A stretch of 44,595 bases of DNA, taken from assembly GCA_016223005.1 (NCBI GenBank), contig JACRPW010000046.1, positions 1-44,595 on the forward strand. The letters are read 5' to 3'. The notes beneath the pieces were generated by a model that searched no databases, was not told the DNA's origin, and saw nothing but the letters and a program-made list of their open reading frames with translations. A program made the translations under genes and the position numbers. Origin of the DNA: Deltaproteobacteria bacterium (GTDB lineage Bacteria > Desulfobacterota > GWC2-55-46 > UBA9637 > GWC2-42-11). Each line of letters begins with the position of its first letter. Positions within the stretch are counted from its first letter, which is position 1. Below are positions 791 to 22,560 of this stretch, piece after piece.

Positions 791-889
791 ATATCACCTT
801 CTATCCTCAATAATTATTTCGGAAAGGGGTTTATCTTTACAACCACATCCTTATGCCAACAAGTTGCACACCTCATCCTCCATGTGGCT

Positions 890-918
890 ATTGTAGATAC
901 AAAATGGCAGTTTGTCAA
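890..918 (-). promoter_or_regulatory. sigma-70-like promoter for argH
   Basis: On the minus strand a perfect -35 box TTGACA (913-918) is followed after exactly 17 bases by TACAAT (890-895), five of six matches to the -10 consensus. Transcription would start near 883, leaving a leader of about 93 bases before argH. That leader could encode a 20-residue Cys-containing peptide (876-814), but it has no well-spaced ribosome site, so I do not call it a gene. Confidence 0.6.
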
Positions 919-1019
919 TTCTATATTCCCAAGATATATTCCCAAGAAAAAATACTTGACAGGATTTTTTAGAACTGTTAAAAAAAACAATAATTTAAAG
1001 AGATTCTGGATAAATCCAG

Positions 1020-1076
1020 GGGGGCTGTCCCTAATTTACGGAGCAGAGCAGAGTCGTAGAATAGGGACTGTCCCCC
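1020..1076. repeat. REP-like imperfect inverted repeat
   Basis: Two GC-rich arms, GGGGGCTGTCCCTA near 1021 and TAGGGACTGTCCCCC ending at 1076, are near-perfect inverted complements around a ~28-base centre. The GGGAC(T)GTCCC core resembles palindromes mobilised by REP-associated transposases. It lies in the leader just before the barrel-protein ribosome site, so it could also form an RNA hairpin near that start. Confidence 0.55.
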
Positions 1077-1093
1077 AAAATAGGAGAAAAACA

Positions 1094-2404
1094 ATGAAGA
1101 GACTATTAGTTTTATTAGTTGCTGTGTTTGCTGCCAGCCTGTTGACAGCATCTTCATATGCTGCTGATGCTAAATTTAACGGTCATTACAGGGTAATGGG
1201 ATTTATGGTTGAAAATATGTCACAAAACGGCAGCCTTCAGAGGCCAGGTGCTGATGAAAAATGGTCTTATGTAGAGCATAGATTGAGGTTGAACATAGAT
1301 ATTTATGAGGGTCCTGTTATGGGAAGGCTGCAAATCAACTCTGCTGCCCCATTCTCTCAAGGTTACAAGTGGGGCGAGGGGCAGGATTCTTCTGGATGGA
1401 ACCGTGAGATGTTTCTTCAGTTTCCATTAGGGGGCGCTGTTGTCAAGGTAGGTAAATACTGGGCAACAAGTCCTTACACACTTGGAGAATTTATACATAT
1501 GGGGACATGGGAGGGACTTACTATCACATATCCTGTGAGCCCTGCCCTTACTCTCATTGCCTCTGTCTTTGACACATCTGACGCATCAGAGGATGATGCT
1601 AAACTTTATGCACTGGTTATCCCATACAGCCCTGCTGGCTCTGTTTTTAGCGGTGTGCTTGGCTGGTACTATTATGTAGATAATAATAGTACTACTGCTG
1701 GAACATATAGAGAAGATAGACCTATGTGGCTTGTCGGAACAGTAGCAGCTGCACAAGGTCCGTGGAATGTCCGACTGACAGGCGCCGCTATGTTTGGTGA
1801 TACAGATATAAATATTGCTGGTGTCTCGTCTTCTTATGATTATAATGCGCATGCTTATGATGTCAGGGCAAGTTATAACTTTGCAAAGGCAGGTGGTCCC
1901 CCACTTACTTTAGAGGCAATATATGGGTATGGTAGTGGTGATGACAATCAGACTGCTTCTGACCGTGACTATAAAGAGTTTAGAACCCCAACGCCGTCAT
2001 ATACCCATACCTCCATATTTCTGGATGGGGGTGATTCAGGAGATGGCGGTGCCCAACTTGCCCATCCCGCCCGTTCACAGGCTGGCGGTATTGGCAACCT
2101 AAGCTGGATTGGTTTAAAGGCATCGTACAAACTAACAGCCAAGTCTACACTAAATGCCTCTGCATCAACCTTTTATCTTGCTGAAAAGACAGCTAACAAT
2201 CCATCATACGATTATCAGGATGATGAGTTGGGGCAGGAATATAATCTTGCGTTTGTTCATCAATTGGCAAAGGGTCTTAGCCTAACCCTTTCAGGCGCAT
2301 GGTTTATACCAAATGAAAAGGGCTGGACAACAACGACTGCCGCAGCCACAGCGCCAGATGACACCGTTAGTGAATATATGACAAAGTTATTCTGGAGTTT
2401 CTAA
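1094..2404 (+). CDS. outer-membrane beta-barrel (porin-like) protein
   Basis: A 436-residue exported protein. The open frame extends upstream to 884, but the ATG at 1094 is chosen because TAGGAG lies just before it and it begins with a textbook signal peptide (MKRLLVLLVAVFAASLLTA, cleavage after SYAADA). The mature part is rich in alternating aromatic/hydrophobic and polar residues typical of barrel strands (for example LTLIASVFDTSD, YDVRASYNFAKAG) and ends in KLFWSF, a C-terminal aromatic residue as recognised by the BAM machinery. No family-specific motif is visible, so the substrate is unknown. It is followed by two TPR genes after a terminator. Porin-like is an inference from architecture. 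Confidence 0.75.
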   Translation: MKRLLVLLVAVFAASLLTASSYAADAKFNGHYRVMGFMVENMSQNGSLQRPGADEKWSYVEHRLRLNIDIYEGPVMGRLQINSAAPFSQGYKWGEGQDSSGWNREMFLQFPLGGAVVKVGKYWATSPYTLGEFIHMGTWEGLTITYPVSPALTLIASVFDTSDASEDDAKLYALVIPYSPAGSVFSGVLGWYYYVDNNSTTAGTYREDRPMWLVGTVAAAQGPWNVRLTGAAMFGDTDINIAGVSSSYDYNAHAYDVRASYNFAKAGGPPLTLEAIYGYGSGDDNQTASDRDYKEFRTPTPSYTHTSIFLDGGDSGDGGAQLAHPARSQAGGIGNLSWIGLKASYKLTAKSTLNASASTFYLAEKTANNPSYDYQDDELGQEYNLAFVHQLAKGLSLTLSGAWFIPNEKGWTTTTAAATAPDDTVSEYMTKLFWSF

Positions 2405-2490: not shown

Positions 2491-3555
2491 ATGATTAGTG
2501 TAAGGACACTTGCCATGACTATCATAGTAGTTTTAGTCTCTGGCTACAGCATAGCCTCCCAGTATGAGTCTCAAGGCAATATGTATTTTTCAGCAGAGAA
2601 CTATACAGAGAGTGCATCTAGTTATGAAAAGGCTTTGGCTGAAAATCCAAACAATAAGACAGCACTTCTTATGGCTGGATGGAGTTATTTTAAGATTGAA
2701 AGATATGAGGATGCAAAGGCACAGTTTGAAAGACTGAATAAACTTAATAAAGATTCAATGGATGCCCTTGAGGGTCTGGGATGGACAGACTTTAAACTTG
2801 GCAACTATAAGGAATCTCTTAAAATCTTTGAAACCATGAGGGGAAAGGATAAAACCCATGTAGGCGCTATAGAAGGAATAGCCTATAATCATTTTAAACT
2901 TGGCAATTTGCCAGAGGCAAAAAAATACCTTGCTGCAGCATTGTTTGAAAATCCGTATTCTTCTGACAGCAATCTGATAAGGGGATTCGTTGCATTGCAG
3001 GAAAAGGATTTTTCCACAGCCATAACCTTCTTTGAGGAGGCTAAAACACACTCCAGTAAAAAGGACGCAGACATCTATGCTGGACTTGGAAACGGATACA
3101 TGGGCAAAAAGGACTACAACATGGCAGACTACTATTACAACACCGCGTTGGAGATAAAGCCTAAAAATCAACTGGCGATTGCAGGCAAGGGGCAGTTATT
3201 TGTTATTAAACAGGCAGTAATGGCAGAAGGTGCCAGACTTTTGTTGGATGGAAATTTCAAGGGTGCCATAGAGGAATATCAGAAGGTTCTGCAGTTATAT
3301 CCTAACTGGGTGGAAGTCTATGCAGCAAAGGGCTGGACAATGTATAAAAAGGGTGATTACAAAGGCGCATATACAGAATTTAATAAAGGGCTTAATATTT
3401 ATAAACTCTCGTATGACATCTATGACGGCATTGGCTGGAGCGCCCTAAAACTAGGGATGAAAGATGAGGCTGAAAAATCCTTTAAAAAGGCGCTTGAAAT
3501 CTTTCCCGGATATGTAAGTTCGCAAGAGGGGTTAAGGCAGATTAAAACCAAATAA
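2491..3555 (+). CDS. exported TPR-repeat protein (354 aa)
   Basis: A protein of tandem tetratricopeptide repeats behind an N-terminal signal sequence (hydrophobic residues ~6-22, ending SIASQYES). Repeats of about 34 residues run through the whole chain, with the W/G/Y-A-pattern visible in AGWSYFKIERYEDA, GLGWTDFKLGNYKES and AKGWTMYKKGDYKGA. TPRs make protein-protein scaffolds, and the signal places it in the periplasm or at the outer membrane. AAGGAGG precedes the ATG by 7 bases. It is followed after only 29 bases by a larger TPR gene with the same repeat style, so the two probably work together. The partner is unknown. Confidence 0.85.
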   Translation: MISVRTLAMTIIVVLVSGYSIASQYESQGNMYFSAENYTESASSYEKALAENPNNKTALLMAGWSYFKIERYEDAKAQFERLNKLNKDSMDALEGLGWTDFKLGNYKESLKIFETMRGKDKTHVGAIEGIAYNHFKLGNLPEAKKYLAAALFENPYSSDSNLIRGFVALQEKDFSTAITFFEEAKTHSSKKDADIYAGLGNGYMGKKDYNMADYYYNTALEIKPKNQLAIAGKGQLFVIKQAVMAEGARLLLDGNFKGAIEEYQKVLQLYPNWVEVYAAKGWTMYKKGDYKGAYTEFNKGLNIYKLSYDIYDGIGWSALKLGMKDEAEKSFKKALEIFPGYVSSQEGLRQIKTK

Positions 3556-3584: not shown

Positions 3585-6026
3585 ATGATTAGAAAGATTT
3601 TGGTCGTATTGACGGTAGTATCCTTCATGGTAGTCATTACCTCTGGACAGTTGTCTGCCCAGGACATCCAGAAGGCAGGCAAACTTTATAATGAAAAGAA
3701 ATACAGTGAGGCATATACAGAGTTTGAAAAACTCTATAAGACTGACCCTAATAACATAGATGCCTTCAATGGAATGGCATGGTCAAAATTTCAGATTGGG
3801 AGGGTAGAAGAGGCAGAAAGGATGTTTAAAGACATCATAAGAAAATCTCCATATCATGCAGGCGCCAGTGAAGGGCTTGCTGCTGTTGGTATAAAGAGAT
3901 ACGAAAACTTTAACAAGGCATGGGCGCAATACTATGCCGGTGATTTCAAAAATGCTGTAAAATCCTTTGATGCTGTTGTTCAGGACAAACAGGGCCTCCT
4001 CCCTGAAAAAGAGATGTGGAGGGTATATCTGGGATTGGGTTACAGTCATTCAGGCAATAAAGAATATAAAGAGGCAAGAGAGGCATTTAAGGGTTCTTTA
4101 AAACTACAAGATAATTACGATGCCCATAAGGGTATAGGACTTATTGAATTTGAGAACAAAAACTTTAGTGCTGCAATAGAGTCATTTAAGCAGTCATTAA
4201 AACTAAATCCTGTTCAGTATGATGTGCAGTCCCTTCTTTCATGGGGTTATTTCAGAGCCAACAGAAATGATGAGGCTATAGACGGGTTTAAGAAACAGAC
4301 GGTCATCTCTCCGTATGATGCTGATGCACATTACGGGTTAGCACTTGCCCTTAATAAAAAGGGCGATAGAAAATCCGCACTTATAGAATTCTATGCTGCA
4401 ATAAACATCCTGCCTGGATATGTGGCAGCCGAAGAGTTTTTAAAGACCATAAGGGGTGCTAAAGAATACAAGGAACTTTATCCGTATCTCGGCTGGTCAC
4501 TTTATCATGCAGGACTTTTCAAAAACAGCCTTCTAGTATTTGAATCGGGTATTCGTGAGTATTCCTCTGACGACGACCTGTTGAGAGGTGCTGGCTATGC
4601 TGCACTTAAACTTGGAAAATATAATGAGGCAATTGAATATTCCAAAAAATCCCTGTCAATCAACCCAAACCTAATGCCTGTGTACGAGACATCCTTTGCC
4701 CAGGAGACTGGATTCCCTTACAGGCTTTACAGCGATGCACAAACAACGCTCGCATGGTCTTATCTTTACAAGAATGACTATACAAAGGCTGAAGAATCAT
4801 TCCTAACAGCCATTAAAACACACCCTGACTGGCCGGATGCAAACAGCGGACTGGCGTGGGTATATTATTCACAGAAAAAATATAATGATGCTGAAGAACA
4901 GTTTAACAAGGCTATTAAGGTTGACCCTACTTACGCAGATGCATATTCAGGTTTATCTGCAGTTGCAAATGCAAGGCTTGGCAAGTCAGGGGATGGATGG
5001 AGGTTTTACTACACAGGGCAATCTGATAAGGCAAAAGAGTTTTTTGTCAATCTTTTAAAGGAACAGAACTTATCCCCTGAAGCACGTTTAAGTGCCACAA
5101 GGGGTCTTGGATGGAGCAGCCTTATGCTTAAGAATTATGATGATGCAGAAAAATACTTTGGTTCTATTCTCAAGGATAACAGTAATGATTACGATGCCAT
5201 ACTGGGCATAGGGTATGTATCCTACAACAGAAATAACTTTAATGAGGCAATAAAATATCTAAAGAATGCTGTAAAGGCATTTCCATATGATGCAAATGCA
5301 GAGATAACACTTGGTTGGAGTTATTATAAGAGGAAGGACTATGCAAACAGCCTTATTGAGTTTAGAAGGGCGGTCCAGTTAAATCCTTATATTGCAGAAC
5401 CTTACAGAGGTGTTGGTTTTTCCCTCATAAAGATTGGCAGGGTTGACGAAGGAAAGGCAAGTCTTACATCTGCTATAAATATATACCCACAAGGTGTTAA
5501 TAATGATGAACTGGCAGCACTAATCAAGGAAAAGAAGGAATTGAATGACCTCTATATTACTATAGCGTGGTCATACTACAATTACGGCAGGTTTGATGAT
5601 GCAGTGTCTGCAGTAGACACTATCAGGAAAAACAGCATTAAATATGCAGATGCTGATATGCTGGAGGGTTACATACATTACAAGAAAAAGAACTATGACA
5701 ATGCAATTAAACTATTTACCCAATATCTGTCATCATCGCCAAAGACTGAAAAGGGATTTGGCAAATACAGCGAGGCAGTCTTGACACTGGCATCGGCATA
5801 TTACAACAAGCAGGACTATGATATGGCAATCCAGACATTTAAAAAACTTCAGGAACTCCATAAGGATGACGATATATGGGCTGCACCTTATGACGGCATG
5901 GGATGGAGTTATCTAAAGAAGGGCAGCAAGGTTGAGGCAGAAAAATTCTTCAACAAGTCTCTTCAACTGGCGCCCGGGTATGTAAGTTCCCTTGATGGTT
6001 TAAATGAACTAAAGAAAGGGAAATAG
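3585..6026 (+). CDS. exported large TPR-repeat protein (813 aa)
   Basis: A long TPR solenoid with a signal peptide (residues ~1-26, ending SGQLSAQ). I count more than fifteen repeats. Many share the same G-x-x/a-W-S signature at helix A (GMAWSKFQIGR, GLAWVYYSQKKY, GLGWSSLMLKNY, TLGWSYYKRKDY, GMGWSYLKKGS), so the gene grew by internal duplication. It ends with the same AEKFFNKSLQLAPGYVSS-type repeat as the upstream gene (EKSFKKALEIFPGYVSS), pointing to a shared ancestor. GGGAGG lies before the ATG. Probably a periplasmic scaffold co-transcribed with the 354-residue TPR gene; its cargo is not visible. Confidence 0.85.
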   Translation: MIRKILVVLTVVSFMVVITSGQLSAQDIQKAGKLYNEKKYSEAYTEFEKLYKTDPNNIDAFNGMAWSKFQIGRVEEAERMFKDIIRKSPYHAGASEGLAAVGIKRYENFNKAWAQYYAGDFKNAVKSFDAVVQDKQGLLPEKEMWRVYLGLGYSHSGNKEYKEAREAFKGSLKLQDNYDAHKGIGLIEFENKNFSAAIESFKQSLKLNPVQYDVQSLLSWGYFRANRNDEAIDGFKKQTVISPYDADAHYGLALALNKKGDRKSALIEFYAAINILPGYVAAEEFLKTIRGAKEYKELYPYLGWSLYHAGLFKNSLLVFESGIREYSSDDDLLRGAGYAALKLGKYNEAIEYSKKSLSINPNLMPVYETSFAQETGFPYRLYSDAQTTLAWSYLYKNDYTKAEESFLTAIKTHPDWPDANSGLAWVYYSQKKYNDAEEQFNKAIKVDPTYADAYSGLSAVANARLGKSGDGWRFYYTGQSDKAKEFFVNLLKEQNLSPEARLSATRGLGWSSLMLKNYDDAEKYFGSILKDNSNDYDAILGIGYVSYNRNNFNEAIKYLKNAVKAFPYDANAEITLGWSYYKRKDYANSLIEFRRAVQLNPYIAEPYRGVGFSLIKIGRVDEGKASLTSAINIYPQGVNNDELAALIKEKKELNDLYITIAWSYYNYGRFDDAVSAVDTIRKNSIKYADADMLEGYIHYKKKNYDNAIKLFTQYLSSSPKTEKGFGKYSEAVLTLASAYYNKQDYDMAIQTFKKLQELHKDDDIWAAPYDGMGWSYLKKGSKVEAEKFFNKSLQLAPGYVSSLDGLNELKKGK

Positions 6027-6058: not shown

Positions 6059-6116
6059 TTGGTAGCCGCACCCTTTAGGGTGCGTCATAACGCAGGCTAA
6101 AGCCTGCGGCTACCAA
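6059..6116. repeat. three-arm palindromic (cruciform) repeat
   Basis: An outer 12-bp perfect stem (TTGGTAGCCGCA at 6059-6070 with its complement at 6105-6116) encloses two perfect hairpins, GCACCC/GGGTGC (6068-6083) and CGCAGGCT/AGCCTGCG (6091-6108). This is REP/BIME-like. It separates the TPR pair from the PqqD cluster and may also stop transcription. Confidence 0.75.
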
Positions 6117-6152
6117 AATTTATGTAAACATATTTATTGCCTTTAGTATAGA

Positions 6153-6410
6153 ATGAAGAAACAACTTATGGACATAGCAGTCAGCGAAACAGGTTTTGTC
6201 TTTGACCCGTCAACAGGACACACCTACCGCCTCAATAAGACAGGGATGGTAATTGTAAAGATGCTCCAGGGCGGTGATGATATAAATATGATTGCAGAAA
6301 GATTGGCAGAAGGGTTTGACACTAATAAAGACAGGGCAGTTGAGGACATAATAGAGTTTCTTTCATTGTTGAAAACTATGGGGTTCAGGATAGATGTACC
6401 GAAAGTTTAA
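6153..6410 (+). CDS. PqqD-family peptide chaperone (RRE-type domain)
   Basis: An 85-residue protein with the PqqD-family pattern: a beta-hairpin containing FDPSTGHTYRLNKTG, then helices with V..IAERLAEGFD and a C-terminal segment EDIIEFLSLLKTMGF. PqqD and related RiPP-recognition elements bind the leader region of a precursor peptide and hand it to the modifying enzyme. No strong ribosome site is seen before the ATG. It overlaps the ATP-grasp gene by 17 bases, so translation is probably coupled. No PqqE-type radical SAM enzyme is nearby, so this is not the pqq pathway. Family assignment is good; the bound peptide is unknown. Confidence 0.8.
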   Translation: MKKQLMDIAVSETGFVFDPSTGHTYRLNKTGMVIVKMLQGGDDINMIAERLAEGFDTNKDRAVEDIIEFLSLLKTMGFRIDVPKV

Positions 6411-7461
6411 TATTGGGGTTACAGGACTGAACTCAACAGACAGCCCTGCCCCTGGCATAGCGGTGATGAAATGTATTAGTGAAGTCACCACATGGAAGGG
6501 CAGGGGAATAGGTTTCGGCTATGATGCCCTTGATGCAGGGCTTTATGTAAAGGATTACTTTTCTCATTCGTATTTACTTCCTTATCCATCTGAGGGTGCA
6601 GATTATCTTTTGAATAATATTCTAAAGGTGCACAATGAGGTTGGACTTCACTTTATCATCCCTACACTTGATTCTGAACTTTATAATTTCCTGTCTATAG
6701 AAAATGACATCAATAAACACGGCATAATGACCTTTCTGCCTGCCAGAGAACAATTGGAGTCATGTTCAAAGATAAACATAGGAAAACTGGGAGACAGGCT
6801 GTCAATAAGTGTGCCGCAGGACTATTGCATTAGAAAGACGGACAAACTTGGGGCAGCGGCTGATACAATAGGTTTTCCACTTATAGTAAAGGGACTGTTC
6901 TATGAGGCTTACAAGGCAAATAATATGAATGAGGCAATGGGCTTTGTAAACAAAATTACAAAGAAATGGGGAATGCCTGTAATCCTCCAGCAATACATAG
7001 AGGGTGAGGAATATAATATTACTGCGGTTGGAGACGGCAGAGGGGATTACATAGGCGCTGTGTGTATGAAAAAACTATATATTACGGACAAGGGAAAGGC
7101 ATGGTCAGGAATAACCATAAAGGATAATTCGCTTTTTGAGATTACTGAAAGGTTTTTTGCATCAATGAAGTGGCGTGGTCCTCTGGAACTTGAACTTATA
7201 AAGGATAAGAATACAGGTGAATACAATCTCCTTGAGGTCAACCCTAGATTTCCTGCATGGATATATCTGGCAAAGGCAGCAGGCATAAATCTTCCGTGGC
7301 TGACAGTTAAGATTGCCTGCGGTGAGAAGGTGAAAAAAACTACTGAATACAAAATAGGCGTGATATTTAACAGATATGTGGATGAAGTCATATTAAAGGT
7401 AGATACCCTTGATATACTAAATACGAAAGGAGCGATACATTATGAGCAAAAGACCTTATGA
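6394..7461 (+). CDS. ATP-grasp carboxylate-amine ligase
   Basis: A 355-residue enzyme of the ATP-grasp fold (CarB/PylC-like). Visible features are the N-terminal Rossmann-like domain (FNIGVTGLNST), the ATP-binding strand GFPLIVKGL, the hinge VILQQYIEGEEYN and the metal-binding motif LLEVNPRFPAW near the C-terminus. Such enzymes activate a carboxylate as an acyl phosphate and join it to an amine. Position between a PqqD-like protein and a PLP decarboxylase, with overlaps on both sides (17 and 20 bases), suggests it works on a peptide or amino acid in the same pathway. Substrates cannot be read from sequence. Confidence 0.85.
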   Translation: MYRKFNIGVTGLNSTDSPAPGIAVMKCISEVTTWKGRGIGFGYDALDAGLYVKDYFSHSYLLPYPSEGADYLLNNILKVHNEVGLHFIIPTLDSELYNFLSIENDINKHGIMTFLPAREQLESCSKINIGKLGDRLSISVPQDYCIRKTDKLGAAADTIGFPLIVKGLFYEAYKANNMNEAMGFVNKITKKWGMPVILQQYIEGEEYNITAVGDGRGDYIGAVCMKKLYITDKGKAWSGITIKDNSLFEITERFFASMKWRGPLELELIKDKNTGEYNLLEVNPRFPAWIYLAKAAGINLPWLTVKIACGEKVKKTTEYKIGVIFNRYVDEVILKVDTLDILNTKGAIHYEQKTL

Positions 7462-8800
7462 AAGACCCACAATGGTCAAACATATTGTCGGTATGATGAA
7501 TGAGATGGGCATGCCGTCAGGACTTAACAGATGCACTGATATAGACGGCATTTCTGTTGATGGTTTGCTAAAGGAATTTGGTTCGCCCCTTGTGGTCTTT
7601 TCAGAGACCGTCATGCGGCGGAAACTCTCTGAATTAAAGAGGGCATTTGAACTCAGATACCCGAAGGGCCAGATTGCATGGTCATACAAAACCAATTATC
7701 TTAAGGCTGTCTGTAGTGTAATGCATCAGGAAGGCTCATGGGCTGAGGTAGTATCAGAGCATGAGTATGAGATGGCAAGAAGGCTTGGTGTAAGCGGAAA
7801 CAGGATAGTCTATAATGGGCCATACAAACCTGAACAGTCCCTTATGACCGCTGTCAAAGAGGGTGCGATAATAAATATAGACAGCCTTGTTGAGGTCCAT
7901 TTTCTGGAGAAACTTGCAGCCTCTATAGGAAAACAGATTGAGATAGGCATGAGAATTAATATGGATACAGGCATGTACCCTGCATGGGACAGGTTTGGTT
8001 CAAATCTGGAGAGCGGACAGGCTTATGAGGTTGCAAAGCGTATTATCTCAGGCGGAAAACTTAAACTTGTATCCATCCATGCCCATATCGGCACATTCAT
8101 TCTTGAACCAAAGTTTTACTTAAATGAGGTGATGGGCATGTGCGCATTTGCCTCCAGATTAAAAGATGAATTCGGGGTGGTGCTAAAGTACTTTGATATT
8201 GGCGGCGGCTTTGCATCAAGAAACAGGCTTAAGTCAACATACCTTCCCACAACCTATATGGCGCCAAGTTTTGATGCGTATGCAGAGAATATCTGTAAAA
8301 TCGTGCTTGAGGCATTTCCCCATGACAACCTGCCAACATTGATACTGGAGACAGGAAGGGCGCTTGTTGATGAGGCAGGCTCCCTCATAACCACTGTAGT
8401 TGCTACAAAAAGGCTGCCATCAGGCATACGGGCGATTATCCTTGACGCAGGGGTAAACCTGATGGTTACGAGTTTCTGGTATGATATGGAAATGATGCCT
8501 GTGCAGGACAGGGGGGCATTTCTTGAGGACCATGTCATATACGGACCATTGTGCATGCAGATAGATGTGGTGAGGGATTACATAAAACTTCCGCCCCTTG
8601 ACAAGGGTGACGCCCTTGTAGTGAGACCATTCGGTGCCTATAATACAAGCCAGTGGATGCAGTTCATCAGGATGAGACCCCCTGTAATATTGATAGGCGA
8701 AGATGGCAGTGTGGATATTATAAGGGAGGCTGAGGATGTAGCATACCTGCAGGAAAAGGAAATACTCCCTGAAAGATTAACTCTCCATGAGGAAAATTAA
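7442..8800 (+). CDS. class III-fold PLP decarboxylase (LysA-like) with leader-like N-tail
   Basis: A 452-residue alanine-racemase-fold PLP enzyme like diaminopimelate or ornithine decarboxylase. The PLP lysine lies in AWSYKTNYL, the glycine-rich phosphate loop in FDIGGGFASRNR, the substrate-side E-x-GRAL in LETGRALVDEAG, and a C-terminal YGPLCMQID segment is in the position of the usual C-E/D-specificity loop. The catalytic domain starts near residue 30. The first ~27 residues are extra and contain PYERPTMVKHIVG, a YxxPxM motif like RiPP leader peptides. It overlaps its neighbours by 20 and 14 bases. Decarboxylase rather than racemase is inferred from length and LysA-like motifs. Confidence 0.85.
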   Translation: MSKRPYERPTMVKHIVGMMNEMGMPSGLNRCTDIDGISVDGLLKEFGSPLVVFSETVMRRKLSELKRAFELRYPKGQIAWSYKTNYLKAVCSVMHQEGSWAEVVSEHEYEMARRLGVSGNRIVYNGPYKPEQSLMTAVKEGAIINIDSLVEVHFLEKLAASIGKQIEIGMRINMDTGMYPAWDRFGSNLESGQAYEVAKRIISGGKLKLVSIHAHIGTFILEPKFYLNEVMGMCAFASRLKDEFGVVLKYFDIGGGFASRNRLKSTYLPTTYMAPSFDAYAENICKIVLEAFPHDNLPTLILETGRALVDEAGSLITTVVATKRLPSGIRAIILDAGVNLMVTSFWYDMEMMPVQDRGAFLEDHVIYGPLCMQIDVVRDYIKLPPLDKGDALVVRPFGAYNTSQWMQFIRMRPPVILIGEDGSVDIIREAEDVAYLQEKEILPERLTLHEEN

Positions 8801-10886
8801 AAGCTGGATTAAAAACGAAAAGTTCATCTTTTTTATTGATACCGTCCTATACAGTTACTCGCAGATACTCTTTGCAAAAAACAGGTTTGTCGGTCTCTTT
8901 ATCCTATCATCCACATTTGTCCATCCCAGTATAGCCGTTAATGCCCTGCTTTCTTGTATCTTTGCAAACTCCTTTGCATTGGGTCTAGGTATAAACAGGC
9001 TTGAAATCAGGGCAGGGCTGTATGGGTTTAATGCAGTCCTTCTCGGCATGTCCATGACCCTTTACATGGGGATAAGGGGCATGCAGGCGATTGTATATAT
9101 ATTACTTTTCTCTTCGCTGTTGACAGTTGTAACAGGGACGTTGTCTGTTTTTTTGAAAAGGTTTTCGCTCCCGTATATGAGTATCCCTTTTGTCCTTGTT
9201 ACATGGCTTGCCATTCTTGCCGGTGACGGTGCGGGAAATACTAAGAACTATATTATATTCACTTATCCTGAGATAGAAACATTCCTTACGAATATTGGCT
9301 ATATAATCTTTAGCCCCAATTCCTTATCAGGCATATTGGTGCTCGGAGGTTTATTCCTGTATTCAAGGCTTATGGGTATTGTCGTTATAATCTCATATCT
9401 TGCATGCATTGCCTTCGTGTCCATATTTCCAGCATATTCCCTCTTTATGACAGCAGGCGGTTTCAATGCCATACTCACATCTATTGCAGTTGCAGGTATA
9501 TTCTTTGTCTTAAGTGCAAAGAGTCTGTTTATAGGTATCATTGCCTCTGTATTTACGGTTATAACAGGAAGCGCCTTTTCGTCTATACTTTTAAATTATG
9601 GACTGCCTGTGCTTACCATCCCATTTAACCTTGTTACCTTGTTGACACTCTATATGATGGACAGGTGTGTATGGCATAATGACCTCCGCAGGGTGCAGAT
9701 ACCTGAATCTCCTGAAGGGAATGTCATGACATCCATCAGGCAGAAAGAGGGAGGCAGGATAAATCTGTTAACAGACAGGAGATTGTCGCTGCCATTTATG
9801 GGGTGGTGGTTTGTCAGCCAGAGTGTTGACGGCGTCCACACTCACAAGGGGATATTTAGATATGGGCTTGACTTTGTTGTCCCTGGCAAAAACGGAAAGC
9901 CATATAGTAACACAGGTGAAGGACTTAATGAACATTACTGTTATGATATGCCTGTGATTGCATCTGCTGACGGTATAGTTGCCGCTGTAGTATCATCTGT
10001 AACAGATAACCCTGTAGCCTCCACAAATCTGCAATACAACTGGGGTAATTATGTTATCATTCAGCACTGCCCTGATTTCTTTTCTGTAGCAGCCCATCTC
10101 AGACAAAAAGGCATTACGGTTAATATTGGGCAGGTAGTGAAAAAAGGGCAGACAGTGGGTTATGCGGGCAGTTCAGGATTGTCCCCTTACCCGCATCTGC
10201 ATATCCAGTTTCAACCAGCAGTATCTATGTGGTCGCCAACACTTCCGCCTCATTTTTCAGACTTTCTTGTAAGACATAAAGATTATGACGAATATATAAC
10301 TGTCGGCATCCCTTCTGAACAACAAACTGTCATGAATCTCCCTGCTGACAATAGTGTGAGAGAGGCAATAGGATTTGAACTTAGAGAAAAAAGCAGATAC
10401 GAACTCAATTTCAACAACAAAGTCTTTTTTGAAGACTGGCTCTTTGACATGGACTCAGATGGTCTATTATTTATTGAATCATCTCTTCATAAGGACAGGC
10501 TTTATTTTATTAAGGGAGATACATCCATCTCATTCCTTCGGTATAGCGGCACCAGGAAGAGCGGACTGTTTATCTTAAGTCTTGGGATAGACAAGATACC
10601 ATTTTATGTGGATGATAGGATGAAGTTTCAAAGGACAACACCCTATCTTGATATAATCACAGGGATAAGGGCATATCTGTTTGATATTATCATCCCTTTT
10701 TACAAAGGACTCAGATTTTTTATAACCCATACATTTAAGGCAGGTGTAAATGAATATCTTTTGACCAGCAGGATAAATGGGAGGACAATGGATATCGCAG
10801 AACGGACGATTGTCTTTGAAAGAGGTGTTAAAGAGATAATCTTCAAGTCAAGACATATTAACTGTATAATGAAAAGGGTGGATTAG
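8787..10886 (+). CDS. urea-transporter-like membrane domain fused to M23 peptidase
   Basis: A 699-residue fusion. Residues ~35-295 hold about ten membrane segments with a urea-transporter-family signature (NALLSCIFANSFALGLGINR, RAGLYGFNAVLLG, repeated in the second half as SIAVAGIF..FSSILLNYGLPVLTIPF). Residues ~325-475 are an M23 (LytM-like) domain: RYGLDF at 358-363 stands where HxGxD is usual, AAHL at 435-438, and PHLHIQ at 469-474 provides the HxH zinc ligand. Since the first His is replaced by Arg, activity is uncertain, although related M23 subfamilies also use RYxxDF. The last ~200 residues are beta-rich and unassigned. The gene ends the PqqD cluster. Fusion is real: one unbroken frame. 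Confidence 0.8.
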   Translation: MRKIKSWIKNEKFIFFIDTVLYSYSQILFAKNRFVGLFILSSTFVHPSIAVNALLSCIFANSFALGLGINRLEIRAGLYGFNAVLLGMSMTLYMGIRGMQAIVYILLFSSLLTVVTGTLSVFLKRFSLPYMSIPFVLVTWLAILAGDGAGNTKNYIIFTYPEIETFLTNIGYIIFSPNSLSGILVLGGLFLYSRLMGIVVIISYLACIAFVSIFPAYSLFMTAGGFNAILTSIAVAGIFFVLSAKSLFIGIIASVFTVITGSAFSSILLNYGLPVLTIPFNLVTLLTLYMMDRCVWHNDLRRVQIPESPEGNVMTSIRQKEGGRINLLTDRRLSLPFMGWWFVSQSVDGVHTHKGIFRYGLDFVVPGKNGKPYSNTGEGLNEHYCYDMPVIASADGIVAAVVSSVTDNPVASTNLQYNWGNYVIIQHCPDFFSVAAHLRQKGITVNIGQVVKKGQTVGYAGSSGLSPYPHLHIQFQPAVSMWSPTLPPHFSDFLVRHKDYDEYITVGIPSEQQTVMNLPADNSVREAIGFELREKSRYELNFNNKVFFEDWLFDMDSDGLLFIESSLHKDRLYFIKGDTSISFLRYSGTRKSGLFILSLGIDKIPFYVDDRMKFQRTTPYLDIITGIRAYLFDIIIPFYKGLRFFITHTFKAGVNEYLLTSRINGRTMDIAERTIVFERGVKEIIFKSRHINCIMKRVD

Positions 10887-10969: not shown

Positions 10970-11308
10970 TTACTTCTGAAGGTCTGTCTTTAAAAACTTT
11001 ATAACATCAGCAATGTCTTTGTCGCTAATCTTGCCTTTCATCGGAAGCATATCCCCTGGTATCTTTGGATATTTCTTTGCCTTCCCTCCACGTCCCTCAA
11101 GGATTATCTTTTTGATATCCTCGTCCTTGCTTTCTAATATAAATTTATTGCCCTTCTGTGCAGGCCCAACAGGGCTGCCCTGCCCTTTATCACCATGGCA
11201 TGCTAAACAGTTTGCCATGTATACTGCCTTGCCGTCTGCATAGGCTGTTCCCGCAGAAAGGGAAAATGCTATTACTGCTGCTGATGCTAATGTTACTACC
11301 TTCTTCAT
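10970..11308 (-). CDS. periplasmic class I cytochrome c, monoheme
   Basis: A 112-residue exported cytochrome. The ATG at 11308 is preferred over an upstream one at 11344 because AAAGGAGGAAG lies just before it and the product then starts with a clean signal peptide (MKKVVTLASAAVIAFSLSAG, cleaved near TAYADG). Heme is bound by CLACH. The distal methionine is probably in the MLPMKGKISDKD segment, giving the usual order CxxCH-Met-C-terminal helix of small soluble cytochromes. It is divergent from the cytochrome b fusion and shares its upstream region, so they may be one electron-transfer unit. A soluble electron carrier is the expected role. Confidence 0.9.
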   Translation of the reverse strand: MKKVVTLASAAVIAFSLSAGTAYADGKAVYMANCLACHGDKGQGSPVGPAQKGNKFILESKDEDIKKIILEGRGGKAKKYPKIPGDMLPMKGKISDKDIADVIKFLKTDLQK

Positions 11309-11472
11309 CCTTTTCTTCCTCCTTTTTATTGTTTCTCCCTGCACTATCTTTGTGCCAGAAGTTCTTTAATCTTTTCTATTATCTGCACAGATGGGTAACT
11401 ATAAAACCGCCGAGATTATATGCCTGAACTCCCTGCTTGTCAATAAAAATTATTTACATAAAAATTATTTAC

Positions 11473-11637: not shown

Positions 11638-13620
11638 ATGTTTGATAAGGTATTATCCATGGGTCATAAAGGTCTTCTTATTATAGAAGAGATATTCAAT
11701 AGGATATTCTCTCCAAGGTTTAACCCATTGTATTACCTTGGGGCAATTGCATTCTTCTTTCTATGGTTTGACTTTGTATCAGGTATATACCTCCTCTTTT
11801 ATTACAGGATAAGTGTTGATGAGGCATATAAATCTATTGAATACCTGACAAACAACCAGTGGTATCTGGGCGGCATAATGAGGAGCATTCACAGATATTC
11901 ATCTGACGGGCTTATGATCGCCATGCTCCTGCATCTTGTGCGGGAATTTTTAAATAATAGATTCCGCAGTTGGAGATGGGTGGCATGGGTAACAGGTGTG
12001 GTGCTTATGGTTACCTTCTGGGTAGAGGGTGTAACAGGCTATTGGATGGTATGGGACCAGAGGTCGCAGGTCATAGCATCTATAACTGTCAAATTTCTTG
12101 ATTTTCTCCCTATATTCGGGGAGCCCATTTCCCGGGCATTTTTGAGTAATTCCATGGTTTCAAACCTCTTGTTCATAGGTATAATATTCCTGCATCTATC
12201 TATTCCTACCCTGATACTTATAGCAGCATGGATACATCTAGTAAGGATTTCCAGACCTGTTATTCATCCGCCTGCAGCACTGAATAAAACCATAGGCATC
12301 TTGCTCATAGCAGTATGTATTATAATCCCTGCAACAAGCCAGATACCAGCAGATTTAAATATTGCTGCAGCAAGGTTTGGCATAGACTGGCTTTATCTGC
12401 CTGCCTACCCCATGATTGCTGCACTGCCTGTATGGTACTCATGGCTCTTTGCAGGCATCGGCACTTTAGTCCTGACATTTCTTCCATGGCTTATAAGAAC
12501 TAAAAAACTGCCAAAGGCAGAGGTCAGACTTGAAACATGCAATGGGTGTGAACTCTGCTTCAAGGACTGCCCTTATGAGGCAATATATGTGAGGAAAAGG
12601 TCTGACGGCAGACCGTATGAGTTTGAGGCAGTTGTTGCTGAAAAGAAATGTGCATCCTGCGGACTCTGTATAGGTGCATGTGATTTTCACGCAATTGCAT
12701 CAACCGAACCAAAGATTTTGGCAGTTGTCTGCGGCTATGGTGTCCAGATGAAAGGGCTTATAGACCCTGAAACAAGGGCACTAAAAGATATGCCGAATTG
12801 CCGTGTTATGATATTGCCGTGTGTTGCAATGCTTCAGCCAATAATGATGGAACATGCCTTTAAATCAGGGGCAGACGGTATGTTTATAGCAGGGTGCGAG
12901 GTTAATGACTGCCACTATAGAGAAGGCAATAGATGGCTTGAACAGAGGATATTGAATGTCCGTCCCCCTGTCCTGAAAAAAAAGACAGTTGACATTGATA
13001 AAGTAAGGGTTGTATGGCTGTCTAAAATCCACACTAAAGACTTTTTCACTACACTTAAGGATTTTAATAATGAACTTACAACAAAAAAGGGCTCAGGTAA
13101 AATAATAAGGCAGAGGTTTATAAAAGACAGACTTACACCAATGGGCATCTCTATATTAACCCTTGCTGCTGCAATAACAGTCTATCTCTCTGATGTCCCC
13201 TATACATTTTTTAAAGAAAGGGATTCGCTTATGGTATTTAGTTTCAAGCACAGCGGGAAGCCATCAAAGGTCAAGGCGGCTTTATCTAATGAAGAATTGG
13301 AAAAACTGCCAAGGCATATGAGACCCAAATCAGAGATTGTGTTAAGGAGATTTCCTGTTTATGCAGAGGTGCAGATTGACAATAAAATAGTCATGGCAAA
13401 ATCTTTCAGACCTGCAGGGTTGTGGCAGAACGGCTCATCATTTGTATTTGAAAATATTATTGTGGAACCCGGCATGCACAATGTAGTCATAAAGTTAAGC
13501 GAGTCAAACAATCCTAATAAATTTGATGTTATTTATGAAGACACGATTGATTTCAAACCAGGTGCAAGGATTGCATTTGATTTTGATGAGAAGGGACAGA
13601 GGTTTGTTATTGCGGAATGA
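11638..13620 (+). CDS. cytochrome b / ferredoxin / FlpD (MvhD-like) fusion
   Basis: A 660-residue membrane fusion. Residues ~1-300 form a cytochrome b6-like membrane domain: paired histidines in HRYSSDGLMIAMLLHLVREF and again in FLHLSIPTLILIAAWIHLV can hold two b hemes. Residues ~300-350 carry two [4Fe-4S] motifs (CNGCELCFKDCP, CASCGLCIGAC). Residues ~360-460 match the FlpD/MvhD hydrogenase iron-sulfur subunit (VCGYGVQMKGL, ILPCVAM, GADGMFIAGCEVNDCHYREG). A further membrane helix at ~500 anchors a C-terminal periplasmic domain. MvhD passes electrons to heterodisulfide-reductase-type proteins, so this chain may link quinone or periplasmic cytochromes with a cytosolic Hdr-like partner. GGGAGG precedes the ATG. 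The exact partners are not in the window. Confidence 0.85.
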   Translation: MFDKVLSMGHKGLLIIEEIFNRIFSPRFNPLYYLGAIAFFFLWFDFVSGIYLLFYYRISVDEAYKSIEYLTNNQWYLGGIMRSIHRYSSDGLMIAMLLHLVREFLNNRFRSWRWVAWVTGVVLMVTFWVEGVTGYWMVWDQRSQVIASITVKFLDFLPIFGEPISRAFLSNSMVSNLLFIGIIFLHLSIPTLILIAAWIHLVRISRPVIHPPAALNKTIGILLIAVCIIIPATSQIPADLNIAAARFGIDWLYLPAYPMIAALPVWYSWLFAGIGTLVLTFLPWLIRTKKLPKAEVRLETCNGCELCFKDCPYEAIYVRKRSDGRPYEFEAVVAEKKCASCGLCIGACDFHAIASTEPKILAVVCGYGVQMKGLIDPETRALKDMPNCRVMILPCVAMLQPIMMEHAFKSGADGMFIAGCEVNDCHYREGNRWLEQRILNVRPPVLKKKTVDIDKVRVVWLSKIHTKDFFTTLKDFNNELTTKKGSGKIIRQRFIKDRLTPMGISILTLAAAITVYLSDVPYTFFKERDSLMVFSFKHSGKPSKVKAALSNEELEKLPRHMRPKSEIVLRRFPVYAEVQIDNKIVMAKSFRPAGLWQNGSSFVFENIIVEPGMHNVVIKLSESNNPNKFDVIYEDTIDFKPGARIAFDFDEKGQRFVIAE

Positions 13621-22297: not shown

Positions 22298-22353
22298 TAA
22301 CCGTTTTTTTAATCCATATCCTTTACCTTCTTTACCATAGAAGGTGTGTGAAG

Positions 22354-22529
22354 TATATCATGGCAGGTCTCCTGACTTGCGGTTTAGCCTACTCTCTGTC
22401 GCCTTCCCAGTGAAAACCAGTGGCATTTGTGCAGATTTCGTTACCGCTCACAGTGGCGGGTCCGTGAGGGATTTTCACCCCCTTCCCTATTCTACCTCTA
22501 AAACATATTCCAGAGGTCACCATGATATA
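22354..22529 (-). ncRNA. cobalamin (B12) riboswitch
   Basis: The minus strand carries the B12-box AGTCAGGAGACCTGCC near its 3' end, the internal GCCACTG and GGGAAGG segments of the conserved core, and a perfect closing P1 stem: TATATCATGG at the 5' end pairs with CCATGATATA at the 3' end. It lies 111 bases upstream of the first cobalamin gene, with a terminator between. High B12 is expected to turn the operon off. Confidence 0.95.
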
Positions 22530-22531
22530 AA

Positions 22532-22560
22532 ATTATAGTATTTTGAATCCCTTACCTTAA
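22532..22560 (-). promoter_or_regulatory. promoter of the cobalamin operon
   Basis: A perfect TATAAT -10 box (minus strand, 22532-22537) ends three bases before the riboswitch P1 stem, putting the transcription start at its 5' edge. The -35 region (TTAAGG, 17 bases upstream) is poor. Confidence 0.55.

Follow-up and report, generated by a model that had tools for sequence, protein, structure and literature searches.

Organization of the locus

The window, that is, the whole stretch of DNA that was analyzed (44,595 nucleotides), contains at positions 6153-10886 four open reading frames on the plus strand, which overlap by 17, 20 and 14 bases. The first (6153..6410) encodes a PqqD-fold protein of 85 amino acids, the proposed adaptor (Pfam PqqD, 7.2e-12), and the second (6394..7461) an ATP-grasp carboxylate-amine ligase of 355 amino acids (Pfam ATPgrasp_Ter, 1e-12). 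The third (7442..8800) encodes an AR-fold PLP decarboxylase of 452 amino acids, which has an FslC-like layout and is not a DAP decarboxylase (Pfam Orn_Arg_deC_N, 1e-33, and Orn_DAP_Arg_deC, 7e-11), and the fourth (8787..10886) a fusion of 699 amino acids that joins a UT-fold domain to an M23 peptidase domain (Pfam UT, 7.7e-50, and Peptidase_M23, 3e-14). The overlaps and the family assignments had been given in a preliminary description of this DNA, and both the coordinates of the reading frames and the Pfam matches agree with them.

Upstream of these genes, also on the plus strand, lie the barrel gene and the two TPR genes that the same description had mentioned. The first (884..2404) encodes a barrel or porin-type outer-membrane protein, a probable accessory, which matches Pfam Alginate_exp (5.4e-6) and, weakly, DESULF_POR1, and which ends in F; the GTG start called for it probably lies too far upstream. 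In an 83%-identical relative (L035), the equivalent place is occupied by a barrel that likewise matches Alginate_exp weakly. The genes for TPR protein 1 (2491..3555) and TPR protein 2 (3585..6026) follow; each product matches Pfam TPR and has an N-terminal hydrophobic segment, and both are probably exported. Orthologues of TPR protein 1 occur in the same position in three related loci (L033-L035) with 47-61% identity, those of TPR protein 2 in the same loci with 49-68% identity, and a partial gene related to that for TPR protein 2 is located upstream of the cassette in L119. The TPR genes are separated from pqqD by a gap of 126 bp, without overlap; in L033-L035, there is either a gap of 12 bp or an overlap. 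The 126-bp gap contains a REP-like element, a palindromic intergenic repeat of the GGTAGCCGC...GCGGCTACC type (6068-6120), one half of which (23 bp, 6092..6114) was found in nine places genome-wide with at most two mismatches, compared with none for the control. This repeat half is an inserted feature and lies outside the conserved cassette.

Elsewhere in the window, a cobalamin riboswitch was found on the minus strand at 22345-22539 (126.6 bits). A single protein of 660 amino acids encoded at 11638-13620 fuses cytochrome b, ferredoxin-type and FlpD/HdrA-like domains, and its gene is adjoined by a small cytochrome c gene on the minus strand (10970-11344).

Conservation and distribution of the cassette

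When 46 loci were read together with their flanks, the ligase gene was present in all 46, pqqD in 44 and the UT-M23 gene in 43, in identical order, and every missing cassette gene coincided with a contig end. These loci had mostly been retrieved by means of the decarboxylase, eight of them by means of UT-M23, and therefore the presence of the other cassette genes is independent evidence. Their hosts are Nitrospinota/Desulfobacterota-type, Myxococcota and Gammaproteobacteria-type genomes. When genome contigs were scanned with the decarboxylase, 12 loci were obtained under the labels Nitrospinota, Deltaproteobacteria/Desulfobacterales, Myxococcales/Polyangiaceae and Rhodocyclaceae, and one labelled just "bacterium". 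By whole-genome search, the decarboxylase was found in 10 of 198 genomes of the window's phylum but in just 2 of 63 of its class, and the two other genomes of its family were both negative; the corresponding numbers were 16 of 189 for the phylum of a Myxococcales locus and 10 of 274 for the class of a Rhodocyclaceae locus. Alignments of the ligase and of the decarboxylase marked the same 10 of the 198 genomes, with one weak extra match for the ligase.

Since the same order recurs in 46 loci and the ligase and the decarboxylase mark the same genomes, the arrangement is far beyond chance, and the four genes form the single conserved unit that had been proposed; the four families do occur together in other genomes, as the neighborhood survey called for by the preliminary description was meant to establish. 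The genes also diverge together: Mantel correlations of protein distances were 0.84-0.90 among the ligase, the decarboxylase and UT-M23, and 0.67-0.75 with PqqD (0 of 500 permutations). This co-divergence and the patchy distribution suggest that the cassette was transferred or lost as a unit. A fixed gene set that is linked across phyla, yet rare in each, is a strong sign of a single selected function. No cassette member reaches the cut-off of a curated functional model of NCBIfam, PADLOC gave no match to a defence system, no description of this gene set was found in the open-access literature, and its function is, as far as could be found, uncharacterized.

The TPR and barrel genes are more than bystanders. 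A TPR gene was located on the same strand within about 6-8 kb in 26 of the 31 loci having enough downstream sequence, while this search found none near L040, L066, L070 and L076. Barrel-like genes, whose products end in F or W, were found in at least 14 of the 31 loci having enough sequence, which is a lower bound, because the crude C-terminal-aromatic rule that was used misses fused, over-extended or differently ending reading frames. L037 and L044 each encode a single protein that combines TPR repeats with a probable barrel.

Several loci vary in other respects. In L119 (G019:C301, 1783-3923), a TPR gene and pqqD are followed by two ATP-grasp ligase genes in tandem, and PqqD is extended at its N-terminus by a Cys/His-rich region. 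Four gamma-type loci (L067, L068, L071 and L073) encode a PqqD with about 170-200 additional N-terminal amino acids, for which neither of the two proteins tested gave a Pfam match; a helix-turn-helix suspected by eye in this region was rejected on the same result. A second copy of the pqqD-ligase-decarboxylase start is located at a contig end in G074 (contigs C9 and C14), and G480 also has two copies (L071 and L073).

The decarboxylase and the ATP-grasp ligase

The marks of an AR-fold PLP decarboxylase are present: K83 (the PLP lysine), R306, C371 and D375 are invariant in 45 of 45 copies, and the glycine loop at G254-256 is invariant as well. The first methionine, which does not vary among the aligned sequences, also backs the start of the protein. 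Each of the seven other genomes searched contained at least one additional, distant homologue.

Although the family names (LysA, carbamoyl phosphate synthase-like) might suggest primary metabolism, with enzymes for lysine, polyamines or carbamoyl phosphate clustered by chance, such an origin is hardly conceivable and is already contradicted by the data. The decarboxylase scores 200 bits against the NCBIfam LysA model, for which the cut-off is 297.9; the Arg and Glu with which LysA binds DAP are replaced by T343 (T/S) and M372 in the 45 copies; and the same genome contains a separate, canonical LysA that keeps the CESGD and Arg motifs. Identity as LysA was rejected for these reasons, and a polyamine or carbamoyl-phosphate function was ruled out by the residues and the cut-offs. 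The ligase scores likewise remain below all curated NCBIfam cut-offs, and the cassette is conserved across phyla. Neither enzyme thus matches a known primary pathway; such a match would have counted against the preliminary description.

The closest solved relative of the decarboxylase is the N-citrylornithine decarboxylase 7kh2 (FslC; E = 2.5e-49), with BtrK also among the solved relatives, and the best NCBIfam model is that of FslC, the score being under its cut-off. In FigC, H357 and R387 contact citrate, Y331 and R290 belong to the amide region, and C354 functions in catalysis (PMC7857480). When mapped via the 7kh2 alignment, these residues correspond to I374, Q404, Y347, R306 and C371, respectively. 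The two citrate positions do not have the FslC residues, being Ile in 44 of 45 copies and Gln in 44 of 45 copies, and Y347, which corresponds to the amide-proximal Tyr of FigC, does not vary. Because the aligned residues of catalysis and of the amide side have been retained and those on the citrate side have not, we infer an N-acylated amino acid other than citrylornithine as the substrate.

The relationship to FslC could also indicate a small-molecule metallophore or amide, for which the ligase would replace an NIS synthetase, the decarboxylase would act like FslC or SbnH, and the UT channel and the barrel would export the product. This is very improbable, however: the citrate-binding His and Arg are replaced in nearly all copies, the genome has no IucA/IucC (NIS synthetase), no receptor gene belongs to the cassette, and PqqD and M23 would be left unexplained. 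A citryl siderophore role in particular was rejected because of the replaced residues and the absence of IucA/IucC from the genome.

The AlphaFold model of the ligase (pLDDT 90) predicts an ATP-grasp fold near the L-amino acid ligases. The top match of the fold search was 2pn1, an uncharacterized carbamoyl-phosphate-synthase-like protein, followed by RizA and, further down, by another L-amino acid ligase, 3vot, at 14-17% identity.

The PqqD-fold protein and the search for a precursor

The cassette protein is the single match to the PqqD family in the source genome (PF05402, 45.9 bits; cut-off, 23.4). Among 43 copies, the positions GF-FDP-G-F-N-TG and D-F are conserved, and there is neither a conserved Ser, Cys or Lys that could serve for attachment nor a conserved C-terminus. 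A covalent carrier comparable to BtrI was rejected on this account, and the lack of a conserved nucleophile or C-terminus makes an adaptor the more likely role.

PqqD proteins form the leader-binding RRE family, and graspetides are made by ATP-grasp enzymes. It could therefore be proposed that PqqD recognizes the leader of a distant or uncalled precursor, which would be tailored by the ATP-grasp enzyme and the decarboxylase and freed of its leader by M23. The nearest NCBIfam models of PqqD, those of lasso-peptide and rSAM-RiPP chaperones, point in the same direction, although all of the scores are under the cut-offs. Nevertheless, a RiPP-type pathway is decidedly unlikely, because no small reading frame besides PqqD is conserved near the 46 loci, and the genes that are conserved next to the cassette include no radical SAM enzyme, YcaO protein or cyclase. 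The lack of a radical SAM enzyme and of a usual precursor gene had been noticed for the four-gene cluster and was thus borne out by the survey. Other clusters of small reading frames were discarded as precursor candidates, as they were antisense shadows of pqqD. With regard to the "leader-binding" protein of the preliminary description, the membership in the family is retained, but the binding of a leader in this cassette found no counterpart in a precursor. Since no conserved small reading frame accompanies the cassette, PqqD may bind something other than a classical RiPP precursor, or a precursor may be encoded far from the cassette.

The UT-M23 fusion protein

In this protein, a UT-fold membrane domain (about residues 1-290) is followed by a variant M23 domain (about residues 330-500) and a beta-rich C-terminal region. 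Its model (pLDDT 81) retrieved urea channels and then M23 peptidases in the fold search, with a TM score of 0.83 by target length for 3k3g. The pore positions, which we take to be a Gln/Glu pair and two Thr on the basis of what is known of dvUT and of the alignment, have changed: the second-half Glu of dvUT is found in 0 of 39 copies (A, S or other), the Gln is kept in 16 of 39, and the Thr are mostly Ser and Ala. Therefore, of the membrane transport protein that had been described, the UT fold stands, while transport of urea or a peptide does not follow from it, and the domain probably does not act as a urea channel.

The residues expected to bind zinc and to catalyze hydrolysis in an M23 metallopeptidase (H353, D362, H437, H470 and H472) are invariant in 39 of 39 copies, and the spacing between His and Asp is 9 residues instead of 4. 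A membrane-anchored M23 protein with a similarly widened spacing is encoded beside a type III-A CRISPR locus on a Thermus thermophilus plasmid (L054, 7641-8600); because this protein stands alone, its variant site being related but the cassette absent, it was rejected as a cassette locus. The 40 residues past the last helix contain on average 6.9 K+R and 3.6 D+E, and this positive charge, together with the known topology of SLC14, suggests a possible cytoplasmic location of the M23 domain. This charge argument is weak, and a wall hydrolase would not readily be expected on that side. The earlier suggestion of a membrane peptidase that trims a peptide is thus upheld for the conserved M23 site but not for the trimming, given the side indicated by charge.

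These features bear on the possibility that the cassette modifies the envelope, by attaching an amino acid with an amine end to a wall precursor, a lipoprotein or the TPR/barrel partner, with M23 opening or editing the wall and the UT domain as an anchor. The constant TPR partner, the frequent barrel, the intact M23 site and the genes for an OmpR-type response regulator and a histidine kinase that immediately precede the cassette in several loci would be in agreement with such a function. It is rather unlikely, however, since PqqD, the ligase and the decarboxylase are cytoplasmic by sequence, the membrane side of M23 is uncertain, and there is no direct link to a wall precursor.

Proposed pathway

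We favor, with a confidence that falls a little short of even, a horizontally distributed, envelope-linked biosynthetic cassette in which PqqD, the ligase and the decarboxylase make a product that is handled at the membrane. The PqqD-fold protein would hold an acceptor, which could be a peptide, a protein tail or a small molecule, and the ligase would join an amino acid to it by an amide bond. The decarboxylase would then strip the alpha-carboxylate from the attached amino acid to leave an amine, following the logic of BtrJ/BtrK, MccE, FslC/FigC and SbnH. At the inner membrane, the UT-fold domain might pass or anchor the product, the fused M23 domain might hydrolyze a peptide or amide bond in the product or in the wall, and the TPR and barrel proteins might complete the route across the envelope. 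The order of ligation and decarboxylation is the best-supported part of this mechanism, whereas the acceptor, the product and the roles of UT, M23, TPR and barrel proteins are inferred. If two residues can be added, tandem ligases are to be expected, as in L119. The original view that the genes are the parts of a pathway for making and moving a modified amino acid or peptide is supported.

More tentatively, the cassette could represent a previously undescribed envelope system, in which the PqqD-fold adaptor, the amino acid ligase and the decarboxylase would make an amine-ended modification or messenger, to be handled by a channel-peptidase fusion and a TPR/outer-membrane-barrel partner, and which would have spread across phyla by horizontal transfer. 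If so, PqqD adaptors would extend beyond RiPP and cofactor pathways, the FslC/BtrK/MccE branch of decarboxylases would gain a new substrate, and a UT-fold protein would gain a role.

Comparison with known systems

The XrtA/PEP-CTERM system shares with this locus a TPR protein (PrsT) and an AR-fold decarboxylase (PEP1), but an exosortase system was rejected, as the scores were far below the cut-offs and the genome has no match to the exosortase family PF09721. LysA has the fold and the catalytic residues in common with the cassette decarboxylase, in which the Arg and Glu of DAP recognition are missing. RRE-dependent RiPP pathways with PqqD chaperones likewise place an adaptor of the PqqD family beside modifying enzymes, whereas the cassette comes without a precursor and without a conserved radical SAM, YcaO or cyclase gene alongside. 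The UT-fold domain shares the ten-helix fold of the SLC14/dvUT urea channels at 21-26% identity in the fold comparison; in contrast to these, the cassette protein lacks the second-half Glu in 39 of 39 copies and carries a fused M23 domain. The siderophore enzymes FslC/FigC and SbnH resemble the cassette decarboxylase in the CMQ-D/CMN-D loop and in the Tyr of the specificity helix, but H357 and R387, which serve for citrate in FslC/FigC, are Ile and Gln in the cassette, and the NIS synthetase is absent from the genome.

BtrI of the butirosin pathway is a covalent acyl carrier, unlike the cassette PqqD, which has no conserved attachment residue, and we know of no UT-M23, TPR or barrel protein in that pathway. 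In its core, however, the BtrI-BtrJ-BtrK system, whose chemistry has been described (PMC7857480), is built like the cassette, from a small partner protein (85-90 amino acids), an ATP-grasp ligase and an AR-fold decarboxylase.
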